In this document: one piece after another, positions 1,088 through 31,591 of the stretch
Position numbering within the stretch: the stretch's first letter is position 1
How the letters are laid out: each line of letters opens with the position of its first letter
Source: Lachnospiraceae bacterium P6B14
Lineage (GTDB): Bacteria; Bacillota; Clostridia; Lachnospirales; Lachnospiraceae
Length of the DNA stretch: 33,126 nucleotides
Direction of reading: 5' to 3'
Assembly: GCA_000687695.1 (NCBI GenBank)
Contig: JHWZ01000020.1
Span: 1 to 33,126, forward strand
Program-made: the position numbers and the translations under genes
Notes under the pieces: generated by a model
The model's input: only the letters and a program-made list of their open reading frames with translations
What the model was told of the DNA's origin: nothing
Databases searched by the model: none

Positions 1088-1106
1088 TTTGATCATTCTC
1101 CTAGTC

Positions 1107-1140
1107 AAAAAAATGGGAGACAACACATGGTTGTCTCCCA
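1107..1140 (-). terminator. Rho-independent terminator between two surface-protein genes
   Basis: Read on the minus strand, an 11-base perfect stem (TGGGAGACAAC / GTTGTCTCCCA) with a 5-base loop is followed by a run of seven T. It begins 17 bases after the end of the 813-residue surface protein gene. It ends about 20 bases before the start of the next gene, leaving no room for a separate promoter. Partial readthrough would set a low ratio of the second protein to the first. Confidence 0.9.
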
Positions 1141-1156
1141 AATAGTCAGTTAAAAA

Positions 1157-3598: not shown

Positions 3599-3794
3599 TG
3601 TACATCTTCCTCCTTTTTTTTGTTTTTTCATACCTTGTGCCACGATAGGCCCACGTGTCGCCAACCGGTGACACCGAGGTATGGATCGTTAGTTTTCCAT
3701 AATCCCAGCCATACCATATAAACACTAAAATGAGTATAAAAATAGGCGATTTGTGAGCCGAGACAATCCAGCCAAGACGGTAGGGCGATACTAT
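3599..3794. promoter_or_regulatory. Divergent intergenic region with an inverted repeat
   Basis: This stretch separates the surface protein gene (leftward) from the glycan operon (rightward). It must hold the leftward promoter, but I find no well-spaced -35/-10 pair on the minus strand; TATACT-like and TATTTT-like -10 candidates near 3734-3744 lack a good partner. GGTATGG (3678-3684) and CCATACC (3709-3715) form a 7-base inverted repeat, and GTGTC/GACAC lies nearby (about 3655-3674). Both could fold in the leader RNA of the surface protein gene. The AGGAGG site of that gene is at its left end. No open frame here looks real. Confidence 0.4.
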
Positions 3795-3823
3795 TTGACA
3801 AAACCACCGAATAAGTGTATAAT
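3795..3823 (+). promoter_or_regulatory. Consensus sigma-70/sigma-A promoter of the glycan operon
   Basis: TTGACA at 3795-3800 and TATAAT at 3818-3823 are separated by exactly 17 bases, so both hexamers match the consensus perfectly. Transcription would start near 3830. That leaves a leader of about 60 bases before the TTG start at 3891, with GAGGAG at 3875-3880. It is the only strong promoter I can see for the long rightward gene series. Confidence 0.9.
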
Positions 3824-3890
3824 ACTATAAACTTGGGTGTTTGTGTCCGACGATACTGAAAATAACGAAAAATCGAGGAGATATAGAGTT

Positions 3891-6013: not shown

Positions 6014-7171
6014 ATGGAGATAGAGAAAAACGGACATGTGGAGGTCCGTAGATGGATCTTTCGCATATTACTATTTCTATATGACGCACTGATTGTAAAC
6101 TTCGCCTATTTCATGGCGATCATCATCAGGTTTTACATCGAGTACAGATGGCATGATATGGGTGCGCAGTACATCGAGATGCTGTGGAAATTTGCGCCGT
6201 ATTACACGGTAGTCAGTCTGCTTATTTTCGTACTGTTCCAACTGTACAGGGGAGTGTGGAGATACATTGGTATAAATGATGCGCAGAAGCTGATACTTGC
6301 GAATGTGTGCACGTGTGTGTTTCAGGTAATCGGTGGCCTGCTGATCGTAGGAAGAATGCCGATAACCTACTACTGCATCGGAGCCGGTCTACAGTTCGTA
6401 CTGATGAGTATCCCGAGAGTGGCACCCAGATTCATCCTAGAAGCATTCGGAAGAGCCGATGTGGCAGCGGACAGAGATGGTTCTACTACCGGGGGGATAG
6501 ATTCTACTACACGAAACAGTGGTGGCAAGGGCGCTCGCACAACGATGCCTATGATGATCATTGGTGTCGGTGAGAATGCTCGAATCATACAGAGAATAGT
6601 ATCAAAGGATAAGAGCAGCATTCTGAGGGCTGTGTGTGTCGCCGATTTTACAGGACGCTACAGCGGTAGTGCGTTTAACGGACTCCCTGTCGTGTCAAAC
6701 ATGAAAGACATAGAGATCGCAGTCGTTAAGTATGATATCAAATGTGTAATAATGTCGGATGATCGCCTTTCTGCAAGTGTAGAAAACAATATCCGTGATA
6801 TCTGTGATAAACATGATATCGAGTTAAGGAGCTTCTCGATGAAGGCGGAGCATCGCGGCGGAGGAATGCGTTTGAGTGATTTGCTGCGAATGATAGATGG
6901 GCCGGTGAGGATCATCGGAGACGTGACAGAAAATGAAAGTGGTCAGGTTGGTGAGAACCAAGACCAATCATCCGAAGGGGAAGCCTTTTCTACTGGAAAA
7001 GATGCCCTTGAGAAATACCATTATAATTATGTGGTGGACGGCATCTCATCATCTAATGATGCTACGTGCGTGAAGATTCACAGGATTCTAACTTCGTCAA
7101 TACCACAGGATGAAGAGTGGGTTAAAAAGATTAAAGAGGAGAATGGCGGGGAAGTTAGCTTCTTCGTTTGA
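6014..7171 (+). CDS. PglF/FlaA1-like membrane module lacking the dehydratase domain
   Basis: This 385-residue protein matches only the N-terminal half of membrane-bound UDP-GlcNAc 4,6-dehydratases (PglF, FlaA1, WbpM, CapD type), which are usually about 600 residues. Four membrane segments lie in residues 14-132. A Rossmann-like domain follows, with IIGVGENARIIQR at about 182-194. It then ends in the linker 'RMIDGPVRIIGDV' near 292-304, where full-length members continue into the SDR domain. The TGxxGxxG dinucleotide motif and the catalytic SDR residues are absent. Residues 305-385 are hydrophilic and of unknown type. The frame is open and the stop lies 9 bases before the next gene, so this does not look like a recent frameshift. 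A purine-rich site (GAGAGGA) 10 bases upstream supports the ATG. It may be a regulatory or partner subunit, or a shortened relic. Confidence 0.85.
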   Translation: MEIEKNGHVEVRRWIFRILLFLYDALIVNFAYFMAIIIRFYIEYRWHDMGAQYIEMLWKFAPYYTVVSLLIFVLFQLYRGVWRYIGINDAQKLILANVCTCVFQVIGGLLIVGRMPITYYCIGAGLQFVLMSIPRVAPRFILEAFGRADVAADRDGSTTGGIDSTTRNSGGKGARTTMPMMIIGVGENARIIQRIVSKDKSSILRAVCVADFTGRYSGSAFNGLPVVSNMKDIEIAVVKYDIKCVIMSDDRLSASVENNIRDICDKHDIELRSFSMKAEHRGGGMRLSDLLRMIDGPVRIIGDVTENESGQVGENQDQSSEGEAFSTGKDALEKYHYNYVVDGISSSNDATCVKIHRILTSSIPQDEEWVKKIKEENGGEVSFFV

Positions 7172-7180
7172 GGATAGACA

Positions 7181-8503
7181 ATGGATTTCGAGAATGATGA
7201 GCGTTTCGCAGGCATAAGCCCTCTTGAAAACCGAATATGGCTTGCCAGCCCTACGATGCACGGTGAGGAACGACGATTCATCGACGAGGCATTCGACACA
7301 AACTGGGTGACGACTGCCGGAAGTAATATCGTAGCTATCGAGGAAGCCGTAGCTGAGTATGTGGGTTGTAAGTATGCTGTGGCACTCGCGTCGGGTACAT
7401 CCGCCCTTCACTTGGCAACTAAGCTTGCTGGAGAAACCTTGTATGGACAAGCTGCACCGGATATGGGAACACTTGCCGGGAAAAAGGTTTTCTGTACGGA
7501 TGTTACATTTGATGCATCGGTTAATCCTGTGGCTTACGAGGATGGAGAAGCAGTGTTTATCGACTCCGAGTATGAAACCTGGAATATGGATCCAGATGCT
7601 CTGAAAAAAGCCTTTGAGATATATCCTGATGTAAAGCTGATAGTCATTGCCCATCTTTACGGTACGCCGGCAAAGATGGAGGAAATACGGGCGATAGCGA
7701 ATGAACATGGTGCGCTAATCGTAGAGGATGCCGCGGAGAGTTTGGGCGCCAAATATCGCATCGGAGATATATGGTATGAAATAGGTGCTCTAGGCGACTT
7801 CAATGCCATATCATTTAATGGTAATAAGATAATTACGGGCAGCTCAGGAGGTATGTTCCTTACCGACTCTCAGGCAGATGCCGACAAGGTTCGCAAATGG
7901 TCCACGCAGAGCCGTGAGACCGCACCGTGGTATCAGCATAAGGAAGTTGGTTACAACTACCGCATGAGTAACGTCATAGCAGGCGTAGTAAGAGGTCAGC
8001 TCCTGTACTTACAGGATCACATAGACAGAAAAAGGGAAATATATGAGCGGTACAAGGAAGGTTTCAAAGACCTCCCTGTGCAGATGAATCCATATGACAA
8101 GGAAAAGTCTATACCTAACTTCTGGCTCAGCTGTATGGTAATCAATCATGAAGCAATGAGCGAGCAGGTCAGAGGCGACCTGGATTATATGTACAAAAGG
8201 GAGCTTGGCAAGACCTGCCCTCATGAGATACTCGATGCGCTGAATCACTTCGGCGCTGAAGGTCGCCCGATATGGAAACCGATGCATCTTCAACCGATTT
8301 ATGCTTCGCATAAGTTTGTCACAGTGAGTGAGAACAACCATGTATCATCTAACGCTACTAACACGGCTGGTGCAGGCGAGTGCATTGATGTCGGCACCGA
8401 TATATTCCGCCGAGGCATATGTCTGCCTAGCGATATCAAGATGACGGATACAGAGCAGGATGTGGTGATAGAAGTAGTGAAGAGGTGCTTCAAAGAACGG
8501 TGA
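7181..8503 (+). CDS. DegT/DnrJ/EryC1 nucleotide-sugar aminotransferase (PglE-like)
   Basis: A PLP-dependent sugar aminotransferase of 440 residues, predicted to convert a UDP-4-keto-6-deoxy sugar to the 4-amino sugar in the cytoplasm, using glutamate. Motifs include SGTSALHLA (71-79), EDAAESLGA with the cofactor-binding Asp (182-190), SFNGNKIIT with the Schiff-base Lys at about 216, and GYNYRMSN. GAGGA 7 bases upstream supports the ATG. It is somewhat longer than the usual 370-400 residues, with extra segments near 85-105 and 360-395. The PglF-like module lies before it and PglC- and PglD-like genes follow, so UDP-bacillosamine synthesis is the best guess. Exact substrate is inferred. Confidence 0.92.
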   Translation: MDFENDERFAGISPLENRIWLASPTMHGEERRFIDEAFDTNWVTTAGSNIVAIEEAVAEYVGCKYAVALASGTSALHLATKLAGETLYGQAAPDMGTLAGKKVFCTDVTFDASVNPVAYEDGEAVFIDSEYETWNMDPDALKKAFEIYPDVKLIVIAHLYGTPAKMEEIRAIANEHGALIVEDAAESLGAKYRIGDIWYEIGALGDFNAISFNGNKIITGSSGGMFLTDSQADADKVRKWSTQSRETAPWYQHKEVGYNYRMSNVIAGVVRGQLLYLQDHIDRKREIYERYKEGFKDLPVQMNPYDKEKSIPNFWLSCMVINHEAMSEQVRGDLDYMYKRELGKTCPHEILDALNHFGAEGRPIWKPMHLQPIYASHKFVTVSENNHVSSNATNTAGAGECIDVGTDIFRRGICLPSDIKMTDTEQDVVIEVVKRCFKER

Positions 8504-8516
8504 TTGGGGTAGAAAG

Positions 8517-9485
8517 ATGGGAGAACTTGGTGAAGTAATTAAGTCAATCAGTAAACCTGCTGAAAAGTTGATTGATGCGATTCGGGCTGCTATAGGTGTT
8601 GCGTATGAACCGCACCATCATAAGAAGATGACTGAAGCTGAAGTGTATCGTACAGAAGAATACTTGAGAATTATTCGCGAGAATAGTGATTTGCCTATCG
8701 AATATAAGGGTGGTGATATCAGGGTTAATATAGTTGATTCTGATGCATTGGTTAAACGGACTGGATGCAGAATTGCTTACCAAGAACTATATAAACAACA
8801 AAACCTTGAGACTGTATTTGATAAGGCCATTGATGTATTAGATGACAAGCAAGTAGCTTCAGATGAAGAGATTCTACCTGAGTGGATGATTCGGTTTATA
8901 AACTTGGCTGGAGAGATTAGCACAGAAGAGATGCAGGACATATGGTCTAGAGTTTTAGTTGGGGAGGTATTGGATCCTGGTTCGTTTTCTATGAAGACGC
9001 TATCGGTACTGAGGAGTATGAGTGCAAACGATGCAAAGCTGTTTAGCGGGTTATCTCGCTTTATTATTTCCGAGAGATTCTTGTTCCAAGATTACTCTTT
9101 AAATAGCAAGTTTGGCTTTAGTTATAATGATATTTTGAGCATGGATGAGATTGGATTGATTAATTCCGATGGAGAAATACATTTATCTGTAGAGGTGGGT
9201 CAGAAACCTCAAGTGTTGATGGAGTTTGGTGATTATTTGTTACTTGCTTCATCAAAGAAAACCATGAGCGTTAGGTTTAATCATTTTCCGTTATCTCGTG
9301 CTGGAAGAGAGTTACTATCGGTGGTAATGAAAAGAGATGATTCTGACAAAATGCCAAATGATTATATGATGGCTGTTGTAGGTGTGCTAAAAAAGAAATA
9401 TGATATGGTGAAGTTCGAGATTCATATAGTTTTAGCGAGAGATGGAGATAGAATAACATTTGATGATAATGAGTATAACCCGTAA
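8517..9485 (+). CDS. DUF2806-like protein of unknown function
   Basis: A soluble 322-residue protein with no signal peptide or membrane segment. The N-terminal part (KLIDAIRAAIGVAYEP) and the central block around residues 121-168 (PEWMIRFI, EEMQDIWSRVL, GEVLDPGSFS, TLSVLRSM) resemble what I remember of the DUF2806 family, whose role is not established. It shows no sugar-enzyme motif. It splits the otherwise continuous bacillosamine-type gene set and starts only 13 bases after the aminotransferase gene. Its base composition is clearly lower in GC than the genes just before it (a line near 8641 is about 37% against about 50% near 7441), which fits a later insertion. The family call is from memory and moderate. 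Confidence 0.75.
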   Translation: MGELGEVIKSISKPAEKLIDAIRAAIGVAYEPHHHKKMTEAEVYRTEEYLRIIRENSDLPIEYKGGDIRVNIVDSDALVKRTGCRIAYQELYKQQNLETVFDKAIDVLDDKQVASDEEILPEWMIRFINLAGEISTEEMQDIWSRVLVGEVLDPGSFSMKTLSVLRSMSANDAKLFSGLSRFIISERFLFQDYSLNSKFGFSYNDILSMDEIGLINSDGEIHLSVEVGQKPQVLMEFGDYLLLASSKKTMSVRFNHFPLSRAGRELLSVVMKRDDSDKMPNDYMMAVVGVLKKKYDMVKFEIHIVLARDGDRITFDDNEYNP

Positions 9486-9506: not shown

Positions 9507-10253
9507 ATGATGGATATGATGAAGAAAATAATTAGTTTGTTTGCGATTATGCTCTCAGTCTGTTTTACGCTTGGATTCTTTGTGAGTATGATTGAAAAGA
9601 AAAACAGTAAGTTGGGCTGGGTAGAAGGCCATAAGCTCTATGGACCATATGAAGAACATGTAAAGCGTCCGATCGACTTTGCACTGACTCTATTTGCTGT
9701 GATTCTGGTTTGGCCGATTCTTCTAATTGTTGCCGTCGCTGTGAGGATTAGCATGGGGAGTCCCGTGCTGTTTAAGCAGGACAGGCCAGGACTTGGAGGA
9801 AAGATATTTAAGATATATAAGTTCCGTACGATGACTAATGATAGGGATGCTGAGGGAAATCTTTTGTCAGACGAAGATAGATTGACTAAAGTTGGAGTGA
9901 TATGCAGAAAATCCTCACTTGATGAGATTCCGAGCGTCGTTAATGTGCTAAAAGGTGATCTTGCCTTGGTCGGTCCGAGACCACTATTATCGGATTACCT
10001 TGATCGATACAACGAAGAACAGGCTCATAGGCATGACGTAAGACCTGGGCTAACTGGATTTGCTCAGACAGGGGGAAGAAATCTCTGTAGTTGGGATGAA
10101 AAGTTCAAGAAGGATGTGGAATATGTAAATCATATTACATTCTTTGGGGATTTGAAGATATTAATAAAAACCATAAAAGTCGTACTAAAAAGAGAAGGTA
10201 TCAGTTCCGAGACAAGTGCGACTATGGAGGCATTTACTGGAAATGAAAAATGA
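9507..10253 (+). CDS. Initiating sugar-1-phosphate transferase (PglC-like monotopic PGT)
   Basis: Predicted to transfer a sugar-1-phosphate from a UDP-sugar to undecaprenyl phosphate, the first committed membrane step of glycan assembly. The 248-residue protein has the bacterial sugar transferase core: the re-entrant membrane helix (about 55-80, with a Pro in VWPI), GSPVLFKQDRPG, KIYKFRTM, the catalytic dyad in SLDEIPS (D139, E140) and LVGPRPLL. An additional hydrophobic segment at residues 7-28 precedes the usual small-PGT core. The start codon is uncertain among several close ATG codons (9507, 9510, 9516, 9519) because no strong ribosome binding site is seen. The gene overlaps the acetyltransferase gene by 11 bases, which fits translational coupling. 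UDP-diNAc-bacillosamine is the expected substrate by context. Confidence 0.93.
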   Translation: MMDMMKKIISLFAIMLSVCFTLGFFVSMIEKKNSKLGWVEGHKLYGPYEEHVKRPIDFALTLFAVILVWPILLIVAVAVRISMGSPVLFKQDRPGLGGKIFKIYKFRTMTNDRDAEGNLLSDEDRLTKVGVICRKSSLDEIPSVVNVLKGDLALVGPRPLLSDYLDRYNEEQAHRHDVRPGLTGFAQTGGRNLCSWDEKFKKDVEYVNHITFFGDLKILIKTIKVVLKREGISSETSATMEAFTGNEK

Positions 10254-10905
10254 ATTGAAACCGTTGTATATAGTTGGGGCTGGTGGTTTCGGACGAGAAG
10301 TAATTTGGCTAGCAGAGACCATTAATGAAAAAAAGAAAAAATGGGACATTAAGGGGTTTGTGGATGGAGATTCTGCACTTTGGGGGAAAGAGATAGATGG
10401 GTATCCTGTATATGGTGATTTGAATCTTCTTGAAAAGGTGGATTTCGATGTGTGGTGTGTGATAGCCGTCGGAAACTCTAAGACACGCAGAAAGCTTGCC
10501 GAAAGGCTTGAATCATATCCACATATCATATTTGCTACATTGATTGCTCCTGATGTAAAATTGGGGATTAACAATGTCGTAGAGGAAGGATCTATGGTAT
10601 GCGCTGGAAGCATTATTACTGTAGATGCCCACATAGGTAAGCATAACATCGTTAATCTGGATTGTACAATTGGACATGATGCAACCCTCAGTGATTATGT
10701 GACGCTGTATCCGAGTGTAAATGTGAGCGGAAATGTTAGTATAGGAACAGCTACTGAAATAGGTACAGGAGCTCAAATAATACAGGGGATTAATATTGGG
10801 AGTTGTTCGATTATAGGAGCTGGAGCTACAGTTATAAGAAATATTGAAGACCATGTTACGGCTGTTGGAAATCCTGCTAGAATTATAAGTAAGAAGATGG
10901 TTTAA
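10243..10905 (+). CDS. PglD/NeuD-like sugar N- or O-acetyltransferase
   Basis: A 220-residue acetyl-CoA-dependent acetyltransferase of the PglD/NeuD/VioB type. The N-terminal part has the nucleotide-sugar-binding Rossmann-like fold (YIVGAGGFGREV, residues 9-20). The C-terminal part (about 100-215) is a left-handed beta-helix of hexapeptide repeats ending in VTAVGNPARII. His145 in TIGHDATLSDY sits where PglD has its catalytic base. The start is the ATG beginning MKNELKP, inside the end of the preceding gene, with GGAGG 12 bases upstream. With the PglE-like aminotransferase and the PglC-like transferase it makes a bacillosamine-type set. The substrate is inferred from context only. Confidence 0.92.
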   Translation: MKNELKPLYIVGAGGFGREVIWLAETINEKKKKWDIKGFVDGDSALWGKEIDGYPVYGDLNLLEKVDFDVWCVIAVGNSKTRRKLAERLESYPHIIFATLIAPDVKLGINNVVEEGSMVCAGSIITVDAHIGKHNIVNLDCTIGHDATLSDYVTLYPSVNVSGNVSIGTATEIGTGAQIIQGINIGSCSIIGAGATVIRNIEDHVTAVGNPARIISKKMV

Positions 10906-11063: not shown

Positions 11064-12329
11064 GTGAAAATTTGGTTGATGAATCATTATGCTTCGGATA
11101 TGTTTAGGGATCGTGCCGGAAGGCACTACTGGTTTGCGAAGCAGCTGTCAAATCGGGGTTATGATGTGACAGTGTTTTGTGCTTCGACATATCTGAGCGG
11201 AGAATATGCGGTTGATCTCGGGAAAAACACATTTGCTATAAAAAGACAGAATTCAATTCCGTTTGTTTTTGTAAAAACTACGTCGTCTCAGGGGAATGGT
11301 ATCGATCGTATCAAAAATATGGGGTTATTCTTCTCAAATCTGTTTCCCGCAACTAGAGTATATTCCAAGAACTATGGAAAACCAGATGTGATCGTGGCTT
11401 CCTCGGTTCATCCTTTGACTATGATTGCGGGTGTAAAGATAGCTAGAAAAATGAAGATACCTTGTATCTGTGAAGTTCGCGATCTCTGGCCGGAAGCAAT
11501 ATTTCAGTTTGGAAAAGCAAAAGAGAATAGTGCGCTTGGAAAAGCATTAATCAAGGGCGAGCATTGGATTTATAAAAATGCGGATGCGCTTATTTTTACC
11601 AAAGAAGGAGATACCGACTATCTTAAAGAACGTAGATGGACAATCGATCAGGGTGGGGATATTGATTTGAAAAAGTGCCATTATATCAATAATGGAGTGG
11701 ATATAGCGACTTGTGATGAAAGAAGTCAAACCAGGATATTGGATGATAAAGACTTGAATGATGATTCAAAATTCAATATCACTTATGTGGGAGCAATTCG
11801 CCCGGTCAATAATGTTGGCAATCTTCTCGATGCGGCATCGATTCTTAAAGGAGAAAAAGGATATGAGGATGTACAGTTTCTGATTTATGGTGATGGCAAT
11901 CAGCTTCTTGATTTAAAGAAACGAGTGGAAAAAGAGAGCATGGTTTCCGTAAAACTCAAAGGTTACGTCAATCGACAATATGTGCCATATATCCTAAGTA
12001 GATCGTCTGTCAATATGCTGAATTACTCTCAGGGGCAGTATAATTGGTCGAGAGGAAACAGTTCAAATAAACTGTTCGAATATATGGCGAGTGGCAAACC
12101 GATAATCAGTACTGTTCACATGGGGTATTCGATTATAAAACGATACGATTGTGGTGTTGAATTGGATGAGGATACACCGGAAGCCCTTGTGAAAGAGATT
12201 AAAAGATTTCATGATATGAGTCAAGAAGATCGAAGAAGGATCGGGAAAAATGCGAAAGTGGGTGCCAAAGATTTTGATTTTGCCGTGTTAACAGATAAAT
12301 TGGTTAATGTGATAGAAAGTGTATTGTGA
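11064..12329 (+). CDS. GT4 family glycosyltransferase (WbuB-like)
   Basis: A 421-residue retaining glycosyltransferase of family GT4 with a GT-B fold, acting on the cytoplasmic face of the membrane. The N-terminal half has the acceptor-side motifs GRHYWFAKQL and EVRDLWPEA. The C-terminal half has NITYVGAI, FLIYGDG and SSNKLFEYMASGKPII, the donor-binding block containing the E-x7-E region. The pattern is like WbuB-type transferases. The start is GTG with AAGGA 7 bases upstream. A 158-base gap before it has no real gene; a 22-codon frame at 10992-11060 ends 3 bases before this start and is probably chance. The next gene overlaps by one base. Donor sugar is not known. Confidence 0.9.
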   Translation: MKIWLMNHYASDMFRDRAGRHYWFAKQLSNRGYDVTVFCASTYLSGEYAVDLGKNTFAIKRQNSIPFVFVKTTSSQGNGIDRIKNMGLFFSNLFPATRVYSKNYGKPDVIVASSVHPLTMIAGVKIARKMKIPCICEVRDLWPEAIFQFGKAKENSALGKALIKGEHWIYKNADALIFTKEGDTDYLKERRWTIDQGGDIDLKKCHYINNGVDIATCDERSQTRILDDKDLNDDSKFNITYVGAIRPVNNVGNLLDAASILKGEKGYEDVQFLIYGDGNQLLDLKKRVEKESMVSVKLKGYVNRQYVPYILSRSSVNMLNYSQGQYNWSRGNSSNKLFEYMASGKPIISTVHMGYSIIKRYDCGVELDEDTPEALVKEIKRFHDMSQEDRRRIGKNAKVGAKDFDFAVLTDKLVNVIESVL

Positions 12330-14182
12330 TGTCTGATATAAGAATGATTCGATCAATCCTCAAAGAGTATGGACTCCGATGGATGACGGATCGTATGCTG
12401 TATAGTGCTAAGCTAAAGCTTCTACGGATTTTTCCAATTGTGGAGAAACTATTTGAGCGCAAGACCTCATTTCCGACGCGACTTAATCTATTCGAAATAA
12501 ATGTTCAGTCTATTCGCAAGATACTTGAGAGTCTGAATGGTAAGGAAAAAGAACAGCTTATAGGTACGGCCGACAGAATACTCGAAGGCGTTATACCTGG
12601 ATTTTCGTCGATAGATCTTAATTATGGAATGCCTATGGATTGGCAATTGAATCCTGTTACTGGAGAACGTTGCAGTGAAAAACAAAAATGGTATCTAATT
12701 CCTGATTTTGATAAAAGGCGAGGAGATATAAAAGTAGTTTGGGAAGCATCGAGATTTTCATGGATGATTACTATAACTCGTGCTTATATACTTACAAAGG
12801 ATGAAAAGTATTACTTGTTCTTTTCTGATGTGATTAAAAACTGGCTATCAGAGAATCCGTATGGCTATGGTGCCAATTATAAATGTGGTCAGGAATGCGC
12901 TTTAAGGATGGTCAATACACTTCTGGTCTATTCTGTCTTTCGAGAGGATGGCCTAACAAAAGATGTTGATGACGTCCATGTGAAGGATCTAGTCGACAGG
13001 TGCTATCGTAGGATTTTAGGCAATTTCTTTTACGCCTACCGTTGTATCAAAAACAATCATACTATATCAGAACTTATGGGGATGATTGTTGGTGCATGGT
13101 GTTGTGCGGATGATAAACAAATGACAAATGCGTATGAATTGCTGAATGAGGTTGTTGATGAGCAGTTTACATGTGATGGTGGATACTGTCAGCATTCGTT
13201 TAATTATGAACGATTAGCGATTCAGGATTTGAATTGCATACTGAGTATATCCAAAAAGACGGGCATGGATCTTTCGAAGCGAAACAAAAGAAAGATCCGA
13301 AATGCAGCATTGTTGATGTATCAATGTCAAGATGATAGTGGAGATATGCCAAATTATGGAGCTAATGATGGTGCGCTTGTATTTCCGCTTACGAATTGTG
13401 GATATCGGGATTTTAGGCCGACTATAAATGCTTCATTTGCTCTTTTAACAGGAAATCAGTTGTATGATGATGGCGCGCATCAAGAGGAACTCATATGGTT
13501 CTCAGGAAATAAGAATAATCAAAACTATAAGAGAATTCATATAAATCGCACATCAAAGAGCTTCAGTGGTACCGGACTTTATACTGTGCGGAAAAACACC
13601 TCATGGGGAATGATGATTTGCAACCGATATCGCACGAGACCAGGACACATGGATCAGTTGCATTTTGATTTGTGGGTAGATGGCGTTAATGTATTATGTG
13701 ATGGTGGAACATACTCTTATGTGAGCGATGAAGGAAGACAGCTTGTTTTAAATGAAAGCCATAATACGGTAACAGTTCCCGGAAAGACTCAGATGAGTAC
13801 TCACGGCGCGTTTATGATTTACGATTGGCCGAAGAGAGGAAGGATCAAGAATACTAGTAATATGATGCATGGTGAATACTGTGCGAAAAACGGATACTTT
13901 CATCGGAGAACAGTCGCTATTACTGATAAGGGATATCGAATAATTGATGCAGTGGGCAAAAAATGTGAGATCAGATTTCATACTCCTTGCGATGTTGAGA
14001 AAACAGAGGCAGGATATGAGTTAAGTTGGAAAGGGAGAACAATTTGTCGGATCATTTCTTGTAGGGATAGTCGTGTTGAGGCATCGATTAGAAGCGTGTA
14101 TTATCTAAAAAGGGAAAAGATTAGTTGCGTTGTGATAGATGGGATAAAAGGTAAAACTGTTACGGAAATAGAGGTTTTGTAA
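12329..14182 (+). CDS. Heparinase II/III-like protein, no signal peptide
   Basis: A 617-residue member of the heparinase II/III-like family: an alpha-helical toroid domain (about 90-385) followed by a beta-sandwich domain. Family enzymes are polysaccharide lyases that act on uronic-acid glycans, and related folds include uronyl C5-epimerases. Candidate catalytic residues are present: NNH (His243), FNYERLA (Tyr293), PNYGANDGA (341-349) and GHMDQLHFDLW (His440, His445). There is no signal peptide, so it seems cytoplasmic, which is odd for a lyase of a polymer finished outside the cell. The start is ATG overlapping the previous stop by one base; a GTG one codon earlier is possible. It sits between a GT4 gene and the UDP-ManNAc dehydrogenase gene. 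It may modify lipid-linked intermediates rather than degrade polymer; this is inference. Confidence 0.88.
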   Translation: MSDIRMIRSILKEYGLRWMTDRMLYSAKLKLLRIFPIVEKLFERKTSFPTRLNLFEINVQSIRKILESLNGKEKEQLIGTADRILEGVIPGFSSIDLNYGMPMDWQLNPVTGERCSEKQKWYLIPDFDKRRGDIKVVWEASRFSWMITITRAYILTKDEKYYLFFSDVIKNWLSENPYGYGANYKCGQECALRMVNTLLVYSVFREDGLTKDVDDVHVKDLVDRCYRRILGNFFYAYRCIKNNHTISELMGMIVGAWCCADDKQMTNAYELLNEVVDEQFTCDGGYCQHSFNYERLAIQDLNCILSISKKTGMDLSKRNKRKIRNAALLMYQCQDDSGDMPNYGANDGALVFPLTNCGYRDFRPTINASFALLTGNQLYDDGAHQEELIWFSGNKNNQNYKRIHINRTSKSFSGTGLYTVRKNTSWGMMICNRYRTRPGHMDQLHFDLWVDGVNVLCDGGTYSYVSDEGRQLVLNESHNTVTVPGKTQMSTHGAFMIYDWPKRGRIKNTSNMMHGEYCAKNGYFHRRTVAITDKGYRIIDAVGKKCEIRFHTPCDVEKTEAGYELSWKGRTICRIISCRDSRVEASIRSVYYLKREKISCVVIDGIKGKTVTEIEVL

Positions 14183-14183
14183 A

Positions 14184-15392
14184 ATGGTAAACGTTATAGG
14201 GCTTGGCTACATTGGACTACCAACTGCTTTAATGCTAGCAAGCCATGGTGTAGATGTAATTGGGACAGATTATAACAGGGAGCTTGTTGATACGTTAAAT
14301 GCCGGACATACGACATTTAAGGAGAATGGCTTAGAGGGGCTTTATCAAGACGCTACAGAAAAAGGAATCAAATTCACCTCGGAATATCAGGTAACTGAGA
14401 CCTATATCATATCAGTGCCAACTCCTTATGACAAGTTCAGCAAAAAAGTTGATGCAAAATACGTAATAGCCGCCCTAAAGGATGTACTGAATGTTGCCCC
14501 GGAAGGCGCGATTATCGTAATTGAATCAACGATCAGCCCCGGGACGATTGAAAAGAGTGTTCGTCCCGTTCTAGTACAGGAAAAGAGAGAAGACCTGAAA
14601 CTTGTACATGCACCGGAGCGTATTATACCGGGAAATATGATTTACGAGCTCATCCACAACAACCGAACGATCGGGGCGGATGACAAAAAAGCCGGCGAGA
14701 AGATAAAACAGATGTATGCGTCATTTTGTCAGGGAGAGATAGTTGTTACCGACATAAGGACCGCAGAGATGACCAAGGTGGTAGAAAATACCTATCGTGC
14801 GGTCAATATTGCATTTGCTAACGAGTTGATGAAAATCTGTCACCATGACAATCTTGATGTATATGAGATTATAAAGATTTGTAATATGCATCCGAGGGTG
14901 AACATCCTTCAGCCGGGGCCTGGTGTAGGTGGACACTGTATTTCGGTAGATCCGTGGTTTTTGGTAGGTGATTATCCCAGTCTTGCTAAGGTGATCGATG
15001 AATCTATGAAGACGAATGATGCTATGCCCGCCTTTGTTCTTCACAGGATTTATGACATTATGAAGGAAAGGGGCATGACGGATCTGGGGCGTGTAGGATT
15101 ATATGGGCTTACGTACAAGGAAAATGTTGATGATATGAGAGAGTCTCCGACGTTGCAGCTTCTAGAAAGTCAGGAAAAACATTTGGGAGATCCTCTAAAG
15201 GTGTATGATCCGTTAATCACAGAGGATAAGGTTGCAAACCAGTATCATGATTTGGATGTTTTTTTAAATGATGTTGACTTTGTGGTGATTATGGTTGCGC
15301 ATGATGAGTTAAAAGGCAACATGGATAAGTTCAGAGATAAGATAGTACTTGATACAAGGCATGTTTATGATGGGGTGTGCTATCATCTATAA
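14184..15392 (+). CDS. UDP-N-acetyl-D-mannosamine dehydrogenase (WecC-like)
   Basis: A 402-residue nucleotide-sugar dehydrogenase, predicted to oxidise UDP-ManNAc to UDP-ManNAcA with two NAD+ in the cytoplasm. It has the NAD motif VIGLGYIGLPTA at the N-terminus, ESTISPGT, APERIIPG, EMTKVVENTYRAVNIAFANEL and the catalytic block GPGVGGHCISVDPWF with Cys252. 'HPRVNILQPGPG' just before that block is characteristic of the WecC branch rather than of UDP-Glc dehydrogenases. AGAGG about 10 bases upstream supports the ATG. No UDP-GlcNAc 2-epimerase (WecB) gene is in the window, so UDP-ManNAc must come from elsewhere. It gives the uronic acid that the heparinase-like neighbour would be expected to act on. 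Confidence 0.92.
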   Translation: MVNVIGLGYIGLPTALMLASHGVDVIGTDYNRELVDTLNAGHTTFKENGLEGLYQDATEKGIKFTSEYQVTETYIISVPTPYDKFSKKVDAKYVIAALKDVLNVAPEGAIIVIESTISPGTIEKSVRPVLVQEKREDLKLVHAPERIIPGNMIYELIHNNRTIGADDKKAGEKIKQMYASFCQGEIVVTDIRTAEMTKVVENTYRAVNIAFANELMKICHHDNLDVYEIIKICNMHPRVNILQPGPGVGGHCISVDPWFLVGDYPSLAKVIDESMKTNDAMPAFVLHRIYDIMKERGMTDLGRVGLYGLTYKENVDDMRESPTLQLLESQEKHLGDPLKVYDPLITEDKVANQYHDLDVFLNDVDFVVIMVAHDELKGNMDKFRDKIVLDTRHVYDGVCYHL

Positions 15393-15423
15393 TGAAATAG
15401 TCTAGAAATGTGAGGTCGAAGAT

Positions 15424-17544
15424 TTGAAACAGTTGTTTTTGTCAGTAAGTGATGGGTCTATGTCGGTTGTGGATACTCCAGCACCGACAATTAAGGATAA
15501 TACTGTAATAGTTGAGTCCCTTTACTCTGTTGTATCTGCGGGCACCGAACGTAGTTTGGCTTCCTTTGGAGGCAAAAATCTGATTCAGAAGGCGATGGAA
15601 CGTCCGGATCAAGTGAAAAAAGTAACTGAAAAAATGTCTACGGATGGGATTCTTACAACAATAGAGTCAGCGTTTGGAAGATTAAAGGACCCTATGCCTA
15701 TGGGGTATACAGCAGTGGGAAGAGTGACTGATGTTGGCAGAGGGGTTACAGATATTTCTGTTGGTGATATTGTGGCCGAGGTTGGTCAGGCCTATCACGC
15801 AGAGGTTAACAGGGTAGGAAAAAACTTGGTTGTAAAAGTTCCGGATGAGCTTGAGGATAAAAGACAGGCGGCGTTTTCTGCACTTGGAGGAATAGCGCTT
15901 GAAGGAATTCATCAGGCAGAAGTGATGCCCGGTGAAACAGTTGCCGTTATCGGACTTGGATTATTAGGACATATCACGGCTAGAATATTGTATGCCTATG
16001 GATGCGATATAATTGGGTTTGATATAGCGGACAAGACGCTCCCTGATACGAAGTTGAAAGCGTTTATCAATTCGAACGATGATAGTGCTGTAGATACTAC
16101 AAAAGCCCTTACTAGGGGGAGAGGTGTTGATAAAGTAATTATCACTGCGGCGACGGATTCCAATGCTCCCATCGAGTTGTCACAGGAAATAGCCAGAGAT
16201 CGTGGTATCATTTGTATGATTGGCGTGACTCAGTTAAATTTGGATCGTCGATCTTTTTATGAAAGAGAGTTGACGTTCAAGATAGCGCGATCTTATGGAC
16301 CGGGGCGTTATGATACTTCGTATGAGGATGATGGCGTAGACTATCCGATAGGATATGTACGCTTCACGGAAGGACGAAATGTTGAGGAGTTCCTTCGGCT
16401 TTTGGCGACAAAACGGTTGAATATTTCGGATCTTATTACCCATGAGATGCCGTTTGATGAGGCTAGAAAAGCTTATGAAATGATTACGACAAACCCTAAC
16501 CATGAGCGATATATAGGTGTTTTGCTTCGATATATTGATAACAATAATAAATGGGATAGTATAATTCGACAGAAAAAACAGAACGTCACCAAAAATAGAA
16601 ACATAGAAATCGGTGATAGGATTGGTTTTGGATTGATTGGTGCCGGAAACTTCGCTAGAGCAACAATGCTTCCGATTATGAGTTCATTGAGAATGTATGA
16701 TTTTGTAGGACTTGCTACAACCGGTGGTGTGGCTGCTGCTCAGGCAAATGAGGTGTTTCGTTTTAATTATACAACAAATGATTATCGAAAGCTACTATCA
16801 GATGATAGGATAGATCTGGTAGGTATATCCACTCAGCACAACACTCATGCAAAGTTTATCATTGATGCACTAGAGGCCGGTAAGAGTGTGTACTGCGAGA
16901 AACCATTATGCTTGACTTTGGATGAACTCGACAGAATTGAAGAAGTTTATCAAAAGAGCGAGGGCGAACTGTTTTGTGGACTTAATCGTCGTTATGCTCC
17001 ACTTATCCAGGAAATCAAGCGTGAATTGAAAACAGATCAGATTCCGGCTGTATATGATTATATCGTAAATGCCGGATACATTCCGAATGACCATTGGACT
17101 CAGGATGAAAAGAGGGGTGGCGGAAGAATTATTGGAGAGGCCATCCATTTTGTAGATACAATTCTGTATCTTGATGGAAGTGATTTGGTTGACTTAAATG
17201 TGGATTTTGTTGAGAATCCAGCATTTCCAAAGAAAGATAACGCGATTATCAGGTTGAAGTTTTCGTCCGGAGCCATAGGAACTATCTTGTACACATCAAT
17301 GGGATCAAAGAAGTATCCAAAAGAGCAGTTAAGAGTGTTTTCAAATGGGACTGTGTATGAGATGGATAACTATGTAAGCATGAGAAAGTATGGAAGCGTT
17401 AGGAAAAAAAATGTTAATCCAAGGCAAGATAAGGGAATTAGTAATGAATATCGAGCAATTGCGGATGTACTTGCCGGAAAACAGAATAACGCATCAATAG
17501 ATGATTCATTTGTCTCACACAGGATGCTTTTAAAGGAACTATAA
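15424..17544 (+). CDS. Two-domain oxidoreductase (medium-chain dehydrogenase plus Gfo/Idh/MocA)
   Basis: A 706-residue fusion of two NAD(P)-dependent oxidoreductases, predicted cytoplasmic. Residues 1-370 are a medium-chain alcohol-dehydrogenase-like domain with cofactor motif VIGLGLLG (175-182). The catalytic zinc Cys expected near 'SAGTERS' is absent. Residues 397-706 are a Gfo/Idh/MocA domain with IGAGNFAR (405-412) and the CEKP motif (491-494). This arrangement is known in annotated genomes as a bi-domain oxidoreductase, often beside heparinase-like and WecC-like genes in polysaccharide loci. The start is TTG with a GAGGT-like site about 9 bases upstream. It may oxidise and re-reduce a sugar ring, for instance for epimerisation. 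The reaction is not known. Confidence 0.9.
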   Translation: MKQLFLSVSDGSMSVVDTPAPTIKDNTVIVESLYSVVSAGTERSLASFGGKNLIQKAMERPDQVKKVTEKMSTDGILTTIESAFGRLKDPMPMGYTAVGRVTDVGRGVTDISVGDIVAEVGQAYHAEVNRVGKNLVVKVPDELEDKRQAAFSALGGIALEGIHQAEVMPGETVAVIGLGLLGHITARILYAYGCDIIGFDIADKTLPDTKLKAFINSNDDSAVDTTKALTRGRGVDKVIITAATDSNAPIELSQEIARDRGIICMIGVTQLNLDRRSFYERELTFKIARSYGPGRYDTSYEDDGVDYPIGYVRFTEGRNVEEFLRLLATKRLNISDLITHEMPFDEARKAYEMITTNPNHERYIGVLLRYIDNNNKWDSIIRQKKQNVTKNRNIEIGDRIGFGLIGAGNFARATMLPIMSSLRMYDFVGLATTGGVAAAQANEVFRFNYTTNDYRKLLSDDRIDLVGISTQHNTHAKFIIDALEAGKSVYCEKPLCLTLDELDRIEEVYQKSEGELFCGLNRRYAPLIQEIKRELKTDQIPAVYDYIVNAGYIPNDHWTQDEKRGGGRIIGEAIHFVDTILYLDGSDLVDLNVDFVENPAFPKKDNAIIRLKFSSGAIGTILYTSMGSKKYPKEQLRVFSNGTVYEMDNYVSMRKYGSVRKKNVNPRQDKGISNEYRAIADVLAGKQNNASIDDSFVSHRMLLKEL

Positions 17545-17547
17545 TCT

Positions 17548-18894
17548 ATGGATAAAATGGATGTGTATAACCGCCTTCCGATTTGGGGGCAAAACTTGGC
17601 ATGTTATGTAGAGGGCATGCGAATTAAGAATACTAGATACGGTAAATGCTTTTGGAAAAAGCTGAAGGAGTATGAAGAACGAGATGGGTGGAGTTATGAG
17701 CAAAAATGTGAGTATCGTGACAGAAAACTTCACAATATGATACATCATGCTTATAACACAGTGCCTTACTATCGAAGATTATTTGATGAACGAGGGATTA
17801 ATCCAGATAGTATACGCAGATTGGACGATATCAAAGTGTTGCCTGTGTTGACTAAGGAGATCGTGAATAATAATCCAGAGGATTTCTTGTCGGTAGGTTT
17901 TCCTAAGAAATACATGATTTCAGCTCACACGAGTGGTACAACAGGTGCTGGATTTATGTTTAAGACGACGCAGGAGGCAATATGTGAGCAATGGGCGGTA
18001 TGGTGGAGATATCGAAGAAGACTTGGGATTGGGATGAATACATTGTCTGGTAACTTTGGAACGAAGTTTGTTGTTCCCTCAAAGCAAAAGAAACCGCCAT
18101 TTTGGAGATACAACAAGCCTTGTAATCAGATATACTTTAGTGCTTTTCATGAAAAACCAGAGTATCTTAAAGATTATATTCAAGAGATTGTAGATAAAAA
18201 AATATCATGGATACATGGATATCCATCGTTGCTATCCGAATTAGCTAGTGAGGTGATTAGGGAGGGAAATAAAAAACTACGAAACCAAATTAGATTTGTG
18301 ACAATTGGTGCTGAAAACTTACTGGATTACCAAGCTGTAAATATTGAGAGAGCTTTTGGAGTCCATGTATATCAGCATTATGGATTGTCAGAGGGGGTAT
18401 CAAATTTTTCAGAGTATCCTGATGAGGTAATGTATATTGATGAGGATTTTGCTGCAACTGAATTTGTTGAAGAGAATGGTGTTGCTAGAATAATTGGATC
18501 GAATCTGGTAAACTATGCCATGCCATTGTTGAGATGGGATACAAAAGACGTTTGCGAGTTTACAGAAAACCAAACGGGAAGGAAGATTATTTCATTAGAT
18601 GGGAGAATTGAAGATTGTGTTGTTCTCCCGAGTGGAAAGAAGATTGGAAAATTGGATCATGTATTTAAAGATGCTGTGAACTTAAAAGAGGTGCAAATCA
18701 AGCAGTTAAAAAATTATGATTTAATCGTTTATTATGTTCCTAGAGGCGTTGGGTTTAGAGTTGATATCGAGCATTCGAGAAAACTGTTTAACCAGACATT
18801 TGGTGAACAAATTCATATAGAATACGAGAGAGTTGACGAGATTGAAAAGTCAAAAAGTGGTAAACTTCGATTTATTGTAAGTGAAATAAACTGA
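17548..18894 (+). CDS. CapK/PaaK-like adenylate-forming enzyme
   Basis: A 448-residue protein of the phenylacetate-CoA ligase/CapK type. The AMP-binding loop is HTSGTTGAGF (127-136), HYGLSEG (277-283) matches the second adenylation motif, and a small C-terminal domain follows. The 'YNTVPYYRRLFDERGI' region near residue 70 is typical of CapK proteins in capsule loci. It would activate a carboxylate as an acyl-adenylate or thioester in the cytoplasm. In this locus that could be an acyl group for an amino sugar or the carboxyl group of the uronic acid; neither is shown. It begins 3 bases after the previous stop, with AAAGGA upstream, so it is certainly in the same operon. Confidence 0.88.
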   Translation: MDKMDVYNRLPIWGQNLACYVEGMRIKNTRYGKCFWKKLKEYEERDGWSYEQKCEYRDRKLHNMIHHAYNTVPYYRRLFDERGINPDSIRRLDDIKVLPVLTKEIVNNNPEDFLSVGFPKKYMISAHTSGTTGAGFMFKTTQEAICEQWAVWWRYRRRLGIGMNTLSGNFGTKFVVPSKQKKPPFWRYNKPCNQIYFSAFHEKPEYLKDYIQEIVDKKISWIHGYPSLLSELASEVIREGNKKLRNQIRFVTIGAENLLDYQAVNIERAFGVHVYQHYGLSEGVSNFSEYPDEVMYIDEDFAATEFVEENGVARIIGSNLVNYAMPLLRWDTKDVCEFTENQTGRKIISLDGRIEDCVVLPSGKKIGKLDHVFKDAVNLKEVQIKQLKNYDLIVYYVPRGVGFRVDIEHSRKLFNQTFGEQIHIEYERVDEIEKSKSGKLRFIVSEIN

Positions 18895-18924
18895 GATTAT
18901 TATGTTATAATAGGAGAGCGAGAA

Positions 18925-19953
18925 TTGATTTTTGTTGGGGATGTCGCGATTCCTGCGAATGTATGTATTGAAAATGTTGAGTTACCAGATGCTTTTATGA
19001 ATGCTCCGGTAATAGCAAACCTTGAAGGGGCAATTGTGGCTGATGGTATAGTTTCAACGTCAGACCGTTGTGTTTTTAGCAACGATGTGGTTGTGAGTCA
19101 TTTAAAGTCATGGAATGTTAAAGGCGTAACAATGGCAAATAACCATATTACTGATATTCCAGATGCATTTGTTAGAACAAAAGAGCTACTTGAAAGAAAT
19201 GGTATCAACTATTGTGGAGCTGGGCGCGAAGAAGAAGCGAGTGAACCCATGTGGATTGAGGATAATGGGGAGCGAGTTTGCGTTTTTTCGTATGGTTGGG
19301 AAGTAATAGGTTGTAAGCCCCCGAATAAGAAAAGAATCGGAGTTAATTCGCTTGAACCAAAGCATATATTGAGCGATATTAGTTCATTTAGGCACGAGTA
19401 TTCAAGTGAACGGTTATATGTGACCTTACATTGGGATGTTGAATTGGAAAGATTTCCTATGCCTGCACACAGAGCACTTGCAAGGAAAATGGTTGAAGCT
19501 GGGGCGGATGCTGTTATTGGGCATCATCCCCATTGTGTTCAATCGTATGAACTACACATGGGAAAACCTATTTTTTATAGTATTGGGAATTGGATGTTCC
19601 CACAAGGAGTATTCAATAAAGGAATGGTTCGATATCCGGAATATAGTTTCAAGCAAATGGCGGTCGAAATAAGAAAAGAATGTGTGGTTGTATATGGTTT
19701 TAGATATGATATTGAAAGCAATTCTGTTTTTTTTGAACAAGAAAGACATATTCCTATGGAAAAAAAGTCATATATAAGCGATGATTATCTAGGTATGTCA
19801 GATAAGGATTACGTGAAGTGGTTTAAAAAAAACAGAATTAAGAATAAGATTCTTCCGGTCTATAAGTATTACAATAATGAATTGGAAAATAGGATTAAAG
19901 ATAGATTTGTGAGGATTAGACAAATGGCTATTAGAATCATGAGGCATGTTTAA
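18925..19953 (+). CDS. CapA/PgsA-type metallophosphatase-fold protein, without membrane anchor
   Basis: A 342-residue protein of the CapA (poly-gamma-glutamate capsule) family with a calcineurin-like metallophosphatase fold. Metal-binding motifs are in order: GD (5-6), NLEG (32-35), ANNH (71-74), LHWD (168-171), GHHPH (199-203) and YSIGN. The start is TTG with AGGAG 8 bases upstream, so the protein begins directly at the first metal motif. CapA and PgsA usually carry an N-terminal membrane anchor, which is missing here. It follows the CapK-like gene and abuts the next glycosyltransferase gene exactly. A phosphatase or ligase-partner role inside the cell is possible; the true activity is unknown. 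Confidence 0.88.
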   Translation: MIFVGDVAIPANVCIENVELPDAFMNAPVIANLEGAIVADGIVSTSDRCVFSNDVVVSHLKSWNVKGVTMANNHITDIPDAFVRTKELLERNGINYCGAGREEEASEPMWIEDNGERVCVFSYGWEVIGCKPPNKKRIGVNSLEPKHILSDISSFRHEYSSERLYVTLHWDVELERFPMPAHRALARKMVEAGADAVIGHHPHCVQSYELHMGKPIFYSIGNWMFPQGVFNKGMVRYPEYSFKQMAVEIRKECVVVYGFRYDIESNSVFFEQERHIPMEKKSYISDDYLGMSDKDYVKWFKKNRIKNKILPVYKYYNNELENRIKDRFVRIRQMAIRIMRHV

Positions 19954-31573: not shown

Positions 31574-31591
31574 TATTTTTGGAGGGTGAAA

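Follow-up and report, generated by a model that had tools for sequence, protein, structure and literature searches.

Heparinase III and the polysaccharide lyases of family 12 (PL12), such as HepC and BT4657, are secreted degrading enzymes. The window analysed here, which is the whole stretch of 33,126 nucleotides (contig C20, positions 1-33126) from the genome of Lachnospiraceae bacterium P6B14 (2.69 Mb in 35 contigs), encodes a protein with the same predicted two-domain fold and with an Asn, a Tyr and a second Tyr in the same positions; unlike these degrading enzymes, it lies in a biosynthetic locus and has an N terminus that is not secretion-like. This protein, here called B, is the second of six linked genes (A to F). 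Four of them, encoding a GT4 glycosyltransferase (A), B, a WecC-like dehydrogenase (C) and a two-domain oxidoreductase (D), form a recurrent module, probably for a modified uronic acid residue. The lyases retain a His in an active-site loop that the B of the window, and the B proteins that we group with it as kind II, have lost.

Partial texts of two papers on this fold (PMC11848413, PMC8006597) describe an Asn, an acid/base Tyr, a His that activates this Tyr and a second Tyr, residues that serve both heparinase-fold lyases and the C5-epimerase DS-epi1. In the same texts, the two C5 configurations each have their own base, the Tyr for one and another His for the opposite one, and small changes may convert a lyase of this fold into an epimerase. 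Human DS-epi1 shares its fold with B and performs a biosynthetic C5 reaction on a glycan uronate using two active-site Tyr (PMC8006597, partial text); B has Tyr294 and Tyr465 in 37/37 proteins. Unlike kind II B, DS-epi1 retains the loop His and a manganese site and acts on a polymer containing glucuronic acid (same partial text), and it was absent from the 27 sequence matches of a B profile. On the product side, N-acetyl-L-gulosaminuronic acid (L-GulNAcA) occurs in bacterial polysaccharide, and the available part of a 2015 review calls its C5-epimerase unknown. Vibrio cholerae polysaccharide (VPS) contains the glycine amide of GulNAcA, a sugar of the type proposed here with an amidated carboxyl, which the excerpted report suggests is derived by C5 inversion from N-acetyl-D-mannosaminuronic acid (D-ManNAcA), vpsB being the dehydrogenase gene (PMC3901696). 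The C5-epimerase and the glycine-adding enzyme are called unknown, with the suggestion elsewhere that VpsB itself may epimerise (PMC4432689, in part), and the accessible portion of PMC7600630 describes another Vibrio polysaccharide with GulNAcA, giving no genes. The sole bacterial glucuronyl C5-epimerase identified according to PMC13308652 (in part), that of Bermanella, is likened there to GlcE; Agl32-type epimerases were dropped as a template for B, Agl32 being AGE-like in the same source. Bacterial polysaccharides hold L-aminouronic acids whose C5-epimerases are unassigned in the cited parts of these papers, and the module described here supplies named, testable candidates.

In Streptomyces coelicolor, SCO0381-SCO0400 include adjacent genes for a glycosyl transferase, a dehydrogenase, an asparagine synthetase and a 'bi-domain-containing oxidoreductase' with similar expression changes. 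The excerpted transcriptome study places SCO0387 beside the asparagine synthetase SCO0386, within exopolysaccharide genes of similar expression change, and names no product (PMC3610822). By product names, this layout resembles that of a Streptomyces KN37 plasmid among our loci (L028), with asnB in place of CapK. A literature search, with most subscription journals outside its scope, found no paper describing the gene set or the function of B or D, so that an earlier reading of this DNA (hereafter the original prediction), which knew of no established pathway for the whole set, agrees with the literature searched. The locus brings a heparinase-fold protein together with nucleotide-sugar enzymes, a recurring biosynthetic combination for which no description was found.

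The six open reading frames (ORFs) lie at 11064-19953, all on the + strand with intergenic gaps of at most 31 bases, and encode proteins of 421, 618, 402, 706, 448 and 342 aa in the order A to F; all six genes and families of the original prediction were confirmed by the ORFs and by Pfam and NCBIfam matches. A profile search of genome contigs with D yielded 15 loci, one of which (L016, a weak match of 123 residues) was removed; the records of D relatives were mostly labelled Clostridia, Lachnospiraceae. The order GT4, heparinase-fold gene, WecC-like gene, D on one strand was found in 13 of 14 close loci, and the contig of the remaining one (L010) starts 0.2 kb before D. At E 1e-60, D was found only in its own genome among 61 (0/36 others of its genus), and at E 1e-80 in 10 of 398 genomes of the phylum; B was found in 39 of the 398 (E 1e-5). 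Both occurred together in 9 genomes against 0.98 expected (Fisher p 3e-9), a test biased towards its result because the B profile included B proteins from 8 of the 10 D-positive genomes; the profile also detects B elsewhere, in the 30 other B-positive genomes. Of the 10 genomes with D, 8 had B within 4 kb of it; in G402 it was about 11 kb away and in pieces, and G235 had no B.

Neighbours within 10 kb of D were counted in 29 D loci (the window, L002-L015 and L027-L040), where some of L032-L040 may share a species with members of L002-L015. Left out of the counts were L056, which overlaps L039, and L001 and L017-L026, which are short pieces of genomes counted elsewhere. The heparinase-fold gene was near D in 23 loci (24 once the record-annotated gene of L028, missed by the ORF filter in a high-GC record, is added), WecC in 24 (L040, counted as lacking it, has a dehydrogenase match slightly beyond 10 kb), GT4 in 22 and a sugar transferase in 19. 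Less frequent were WecB (8), CapK (7), asnB (7), a PglD-type gene (7), DegT (6: the window, L012-L014, L029 and L034) and CapA (2). Thirteen B regions, sampled from 12 of the 30 B-positive genomes without D, showed that B also recurs in the absence of D: in the strong-scoring loci WecC lay within 1.4 kb of B in 8/8, with GT4 nearby. As the seven genomes of these loci hold just 1-6 nucleotide sugar dehydrogenase matches each, this closeness is beyond chance. Among the weaker D-less regions, WecC is adjacent in L055, a weaker WecC match lies less than 6 kb away (measured between gene starts) in L053, and L054, L057 and L058 lack one. The minimal recurring unit is therefore GT4-B-C, with D a common extension, CapK or asnB less common and CapA local. 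The families are thus linked beyond expectation (B and D in 9 genomes against 0.98), and the uronate-modifying module of the original prediction held as a module, but not as a six-gene unit: CapA (2/29) and CapK (7/29) are rare near D, and GT4-B-WecC also occurs without D. We accordingly discarded the unit of six in favour of GT4-B-C-D with optional partners, and ruled out CapA as a member.

B (12326..14182, +, with a 4-base overlap with A) matched the C and N domains of Pfam Hepar_II_III (1e-16, 2e-11) and, in a profile search, heparinase III chains at 5e-50. Its predicted model was of moderate quality (mean predicted local distance difference test score, pLDDT, 67.9), with residues 434-442 below 50, so the new His described below is not placed in space. 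Foldseek with this model returned heparinase III as the best match (about 2e-14), human DS-epi1 following at rank 30 (3e-8), and B is accordingly predicted to have the (alpha/alpha) toroid and beta sandwich of heparinase II/III lyases. We compared 37 B proteins, a set that does not hold the B of L028 and L059 and whose weaker members L053-L058 may not belong to such a module. Asn244, Tyr294, Tyr465, Arg194, Asp443 and His479 were invariant (37/37), and His245 was present in 36/37. In the window, the stabilising Asn244 and the adjacent His245, aligned to the Asn-His of heparinase III, are encoded at 13055..13060 (+), the acid/base Tyr294 at 13205..13207 (+) and Tyr465, aligned to a heparinase III Tyr, at 13718..13720 (+). 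Given this alignment, and because the PL33 residues described in PMC11848413 are spaced alike, Tyr465 would be the published second Tyr of the fold; His245 may be its base His. The counterpart in B of the catalytic His205 of DS-epi1 may be Asn244 (37/37) or His245 (36/37).

The Tyr-activating His, which belongs to an HxH loop four residues before Asp443, divides these proteins in two. It is kept in 19/37 (kind I) and lost in 18/37 (kind II), where it is replaced by Pro in 16, Phe in one and Ala in one. A His three residues after Asp443, seven on from the lost one, is present in 18/18 kind II proteins and in 1/19 of kind I; in the window the change from loop His to Pro (residue 439) and the new His (residue 446) fall at 13640..13675 (+). 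A His two residues before Asp443, presumably part of a metal site, is missing in 10/18 kind II proteins. Since kind II comprises the window B, all eight strong D-less loci and 10/23 B proteins near D, the kind of B does not track the presence of D. By a rough measure, 36/37 B proteins had a less hydrophobic N terminus than two secreted-looking proteins encoded in the window, and judging by these N termini B most likely stays in the cytoplasm. The original prediction's claim of C5 chemistry for B is supported, such chemistry being the natural action of its fold, although the sequence results do not decide between an epimerase and a lyase.

A (11064..12329, +) is a GT4 glycosyltransferase (PF00534 at 2e-17, PF13439), and a GT4 gene occupies the slot before the heparinase-fold gene in 13 of the 14 close loci. 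C (14184..15392, +) is a putative WecC-like uridine diphosphate (UDP)-ManNAc 6-dehydrogenase: it matched TIGR03026 at 409 bits (2e-122), well above the general cut-off, and reached 342.2 bits against the curated WecC profile PRK11064, short of its cut-off of 459. Its closest solved relatives were Staphylococcus aureus Cap5O (336 bits) and an archaeal UDP-ManNAcA dehydrogenase (244 bits), with all others at 127 or less. Neither WecB nor a full-length dehydratase was found among the window proteins scanned with Pfam and NCBIfam. In the same genome, contig C9 carries a WecB and, close to it, a full-length PglF/CapD-type dehydratase (L060:8939-10831) and another nucleotide sugar dehydrogenase, and a WecB-family gene was above the cut-off in 10/10 D-positive genomes, a family that also matches in 11/14 controls. 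Because C is nearest to Cap5O and WecB is present in the same genome and in 8/29 D loci, UDP-ManNAcA is most likely the precursor, and the ManNAcA-type sugar named in the original prediction finds support in the WecC clade of C and in the WecB genes near D.

The pathway to 2,3-diacetamido-2,3-dideoxymannuronic acid (ManNAc3NAcA; WbpA/B/E/D) also applies a nucleotide sugar dehydrogenase and a Gfo/Idh/MocA oxidoreductase to an aminouronate. The GT4-B-C-D core differs from it in having no aminotransferase (DegT is near D in 6/29 loci) and in the fusion of D to a medium-chain dehydrogenase/reductase (MDR) domain. D (15424..17544, +), which corresponds to the NCBI name 'bi-domain-containing oxidoreductase', consists of this MDR domain (about residues 1-375; PF00107 at 1.6e-7, just at the cut-off) and a Gfo/Idh/MocA domain (about 400-706; 9e-20). 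Across 18 D sequences from four phyla, both nicotinamide adenine dinucleotide (NAD)-binding motifs were invariant, including Gly406 and Gly408, as were Lys493, Glu572, His575 and Asp578 of the Gfo half; among these we take the Gly residues to belong to the NAD motif, with the Lys of the EKP motif and the C-terminal His presumably in their usual roles for Gfo domains. In the MDR half, His125 and a string of residues between 290 and 319 were invariant, and no invariant Cys that could supply the zinc ligands of MDR alcohol dehydrogenases was found in the N-terminal domain of the 18 sequences, one of which was partly masked. The kept motifs and residues, together with the lack of an invariant Cys, argue for two working active sites in D and may point to a zinc-free MDR half. 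Our guess is that D may invert a ring carbon by oxidation and reduction. A literature search on 'bi-domain-containing oxidoreductase' returned only the S. coelicolor transcriptome (PMC3610822), and no published function for D. Directly after D, three loci (L005:12136-13254, L006:12121-13239 and L007:12182-13306) carry an extra gene of about 372 aa that resembles part of D (25-31% identity).

Over 14 close loci including the window, C (0.77) and D (0.73) had a higher mean pairwise identity than GT4 (0.41) and B (0.33). Co-variation linked GT4 to B (r 0.75) and C to D (r 0.73), and the four cross pairs lay at 0.23-0.41, two of them also above all 2000 permutations. As the pairs GT4-B and C-D co-vary more than the cross pairs, the pattern fits a division in which the free nucleotide sugar would be the substrate of C and D, with GT4 and B matched to a particular glycan. 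We infer a pathway along the following lines. WecB, encoded on other contigs of the genome, would supply UDP-ManNAc, which C would oxidise to UDP-ManNAcA; D may act with C on the nucleotide sugar, one domain oxidising a ring hydroxyl and the other reducing it. GT4 would then transfer the sugar to a lipid-linked starter made by the sugar transferase, aminotransferase and acetyltransferase encoded upstream. In the cytoplasm, to go by its fold and residues, B would remove the C5 proton of the uronate and return it on the opposite face, turning D-ManNAcA into a sugar of the L-GulNAcA type; CapK, or an asnB-type amidotransferase in its stead, may block the carboxyl group where present, and the finished repeat would be flipped and then polymerised. 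We put the probability that GT4-B-C-D is a transferable cassette of the Wzx/Wzy type for a modified ManNAcA residue, with B altering C5 on a lipid-linked glycan, at roughly 0.45.

Several findings count against this cassette. The solved structures nearest to B by sequence are lyases, not epimerases, and DS-epi1 is reached by fold alone, at rank 30; kind I, to which 13/23 B proteins near D belong, retains the full lyase residue set. The predicted model of D (pLDDT 56.6, predicted template modelling score 0.45) was too poor and was not used. No B lies near D in five of the 29 loci (the contigs of L010 and L038 are cut near D, and the B of L039 lies about 11 kb off, as L056), and strong B loci exist without D. 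Over all 21 four-gene loci, GT4-B and C-D correlated at 0.76 and 0.91 and the cross pairs climbed to 0.42-0.53, so that shared descent explains part of the co-variation. We know of no glycan structure for any strain that bears the module. Given the relatives and residues of B, it may be that B is a true cytoplasmic lyase clearing misassembled or stalled lipid-linked ManNAcA glycans, like the degrading enzymes of other polysaccharide loci: its nearest relatives with structures are heparinase III-type lyases, and the lyase residues, the Tyr-activating His among them, are kept in 19/37 B proteins. This His is lost, however, in the other 18/37, the N terminus does not resemble that of a secreted protein although the finished polymer lies outside the cell, and B varies with the glycosyltransferase, which suits an assembly step (a substrate-matched lyase would suit too); we regard a clearing lyase as unlikely, if worth serious weight.

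The same loss of the loop His in 18/37, with the His two residues before Asp443 also missing in 10 of those 18, could mean that kind II B no longer acts as an enzyme on uronate and, as an inactive or binding relative, keeps the glycan in place for the glycosyltransferase. Asn244, Tyr294, Tyr465 and Arg194 in 37/37 and a new His in 18/18 kind II proteins are nevertheless unlike a decayed active site, which makes a mere binding role quite improbable. Improbable, too, is that the sugar is another uronate, for example one derived from the uronic acid of N-acetylglucosamine (GlcNAcA) or N-acetylgalactosamine (GalNAcA), with C a member of the WecC clade using a different substrate and B making the matching L-sugar. 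C stays under the WecC equivalog cut-off (342 against 459 bits) and WecB is near D in just 8/29 loci; on the other side, a WecB-family gene is present in each of the 10 genomes with D (but so it is in 11/14 controls) and the records name a nearby wecC in L027, L029, L030 and L059. Finally, these genes might simply travel together in an ordinary polysaccharide locus and serve separate residues without a joint pathway. Their patchy spread (D in 1/61 and 10/398 genomes) is usual for capsule genes, and D and B each occur alone; against this, the order is fixed in 13/14 loci, the genes co-vary in pairs and the set recurs across phyla, and we consider mere co-travel very improbable.

Within the cassette reading, a more specific version would make kind II B a new class of heparinase-fold C5-epimerase with its catalytic His shifted out of the HxH loop onto the strand beside it, giving L-GulNAcA or a further epimer on cytoplasmic lipid-linked ManNAcA, while D would invert C3 or C4 of UDP-ManNAcA by hydride transfer between the two active sites of the one protein and CapK would cap the carboxyl as an amide; as a whole we hold this to be speculative and unlikely. 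The arrangement is a recurrent set around a seemingly intracellular heparinase-fold protein whose residues are fixed and whose active site falls clearly into two kinds. If B acts as proposed, the switch between lyase and epimerase known from DS-epi1 would have a bacterial biosynthetic branch, and sugars could become predictable from capsule loci annotated merely with an 'alginate lyase family protein' and a 'bi-domain-containing oxidoreductase'. Should kind II prove to be an epimerase, D to invert and CapK to form an amide, the module would constitute an undescribed L-aminouronate route and supply the step so far lacking for GulNAcA and similar sugars.

E (17548..18894, +) is a CapK/PaaK-like adenylate-forming enzyme, which may either amidate or acylate, and an optional partner of the module; it matched TIGR02155 at 2e-22, far below the cut-off, and its relative in the PDB is PaaK. 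The SGTTG loop (Gly130-Gly133), Tyr278 and Glu282 (YG-x-SE), Asp334 and Lys439 were invariant in 7/7 E proteins, and we take these PaaK-type motifs to keep their roles. CapK was found in 26 of 398 genomes at E 1e-30, 5 of them also B-positive and 3 of these being seeds of the CapK profile; with seeds removed there was no enrichment of CapK with B (2/23 against about 2 expected). In both non-seed genomes with CapK and B (G112, G121), CapK lay within 2.5 kb of B. An asnB-type amidotransferase was near D in L006, L015, L028, L030, L037, L039 and L040, and CapK and asnB, each in 7 of the 29 loci, shared no locus (chance of zero overlap 0.11), no more than a hint that they may be alternatives for amidating the carboxyl. 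In VPS the carboxyl of GulNAcA bears glycine (PMC3901696, partial text), so that an enzyme activating carboxylates would be in keeping with such a pathway. F (18925..19953, +), a protein of the CapA/PGA_cap metallophosphatase fold (PF09587, 1.5e-41, 143 bits, cut-off 27), is a local rather than a conserved part; its nearest solved relative, 8gq9, is annotated as a poly-gamma-glutamate synthesis protein. MslH, a Trp epimerase for a lasso peptide, was the sole NCBIfam match of F; its score stayed far short of the cut-off, and the match raises the question of an epimerase in place of a phosphatase.

Parts of the module occur across four phyla, with plasmid cases in Bacteroidota, Actinomycetota and Pseudomonadota. 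Of 72,556 plasmid records, 7 contained D, always with 80% or more of its length matched (Parabacteroides, Sphingobium, Thalassospira and four Streptomyces), and the gene neighbourhoods of five of these were examined. The Parabacteroides plasmid carries GT4, D, an 'alginate lyase family protein', wecC, wecB and GT4. That of Sphingobium AntQ-1 carries wecB, wecC, two 'hypothetical' genes (the second a CapK relative), D, a heparinase-family protein, GT4, a sugar transferase, an acetyltransferase and DegT, and so nearly the complete set of the window; a second Sphingobium plasmid has a near-AntQ-1 set (heparinase-family protein, GT4, wecB, wecC) without D. The Streptomyces KN37 plasmid (L028) has asnB, D and an 'alginate lyase family protein', and the Streptomyces HUAS 15-9 plasmid wecC, D and asnB, with no B annotated in the stretch. 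On the Thalassospira plasmid neither B nor wecC is annotated beside D, and a UDP-GlcNAc 2-epimerase follows about 3 kb on. The phage records searched gave a single partial match, to the Gfo half of D, in an unannotated record.

In the window, the six genes form part of a series of + strand surface-polysaccharide genes (3837-32470). Upstream lie a Wzy_C-type protein, an aminotransferase, a sugar-1-phosphate transferase and an acetyltransferase; downstream are more glycosyltransferases, a protein with weak resemblance to flippases, another DegT enzyme, a methyltransferase and enzymes resembling fucosyltransferases. By family match, the upstream aminotransferase (7181..8503, +) is of the DegT/LegC type and likely serves a 2,4-diamino starter sugar. 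The starter itself would be placed by a polyprenyl-phosphate sugar-1-phosphate transferase (9507..10253, +; PF02397 at 3e-57, TIGR03025 at 223.7 bits, below the cut-off), and a NeuD/PglB-type sugar N-acetyltransferase (10216..10905, +) exceeded the cut-off of TIGR03570 (205.7 against 160.8 bits). A 385-aa protein at 6014-7171 without a Pfam domain is weakly similar to relatives' PglF/CapD-type dehydratases. Among the starter genes, 8517-9485 encodes a DUF2806 protein, unusual for a polysaccharide operon. The locus ends with two fucosyltransferase-like genes (30596-32470), the first with a FUT8-type match below the cut-off and the second of GT11. Divergent from the locus, two secreted-looking proteins with hydrophobic N termini are encoded on the - strand (65-3664), one of which, of 835 aa, has a match to the N terminus of a pilus-formation family slightly under the cut-off. 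Right before the first + strand gene at 3837, positions 3795-3823 match the sigma-70-type promoter consensus perfectly (TTGACA, a spacer of 17, TATAAT; 12/12), a consensus match only. GC content drops from 0.49 to about 0.34 along 4501-33126, as in recently acquired capsule genes.

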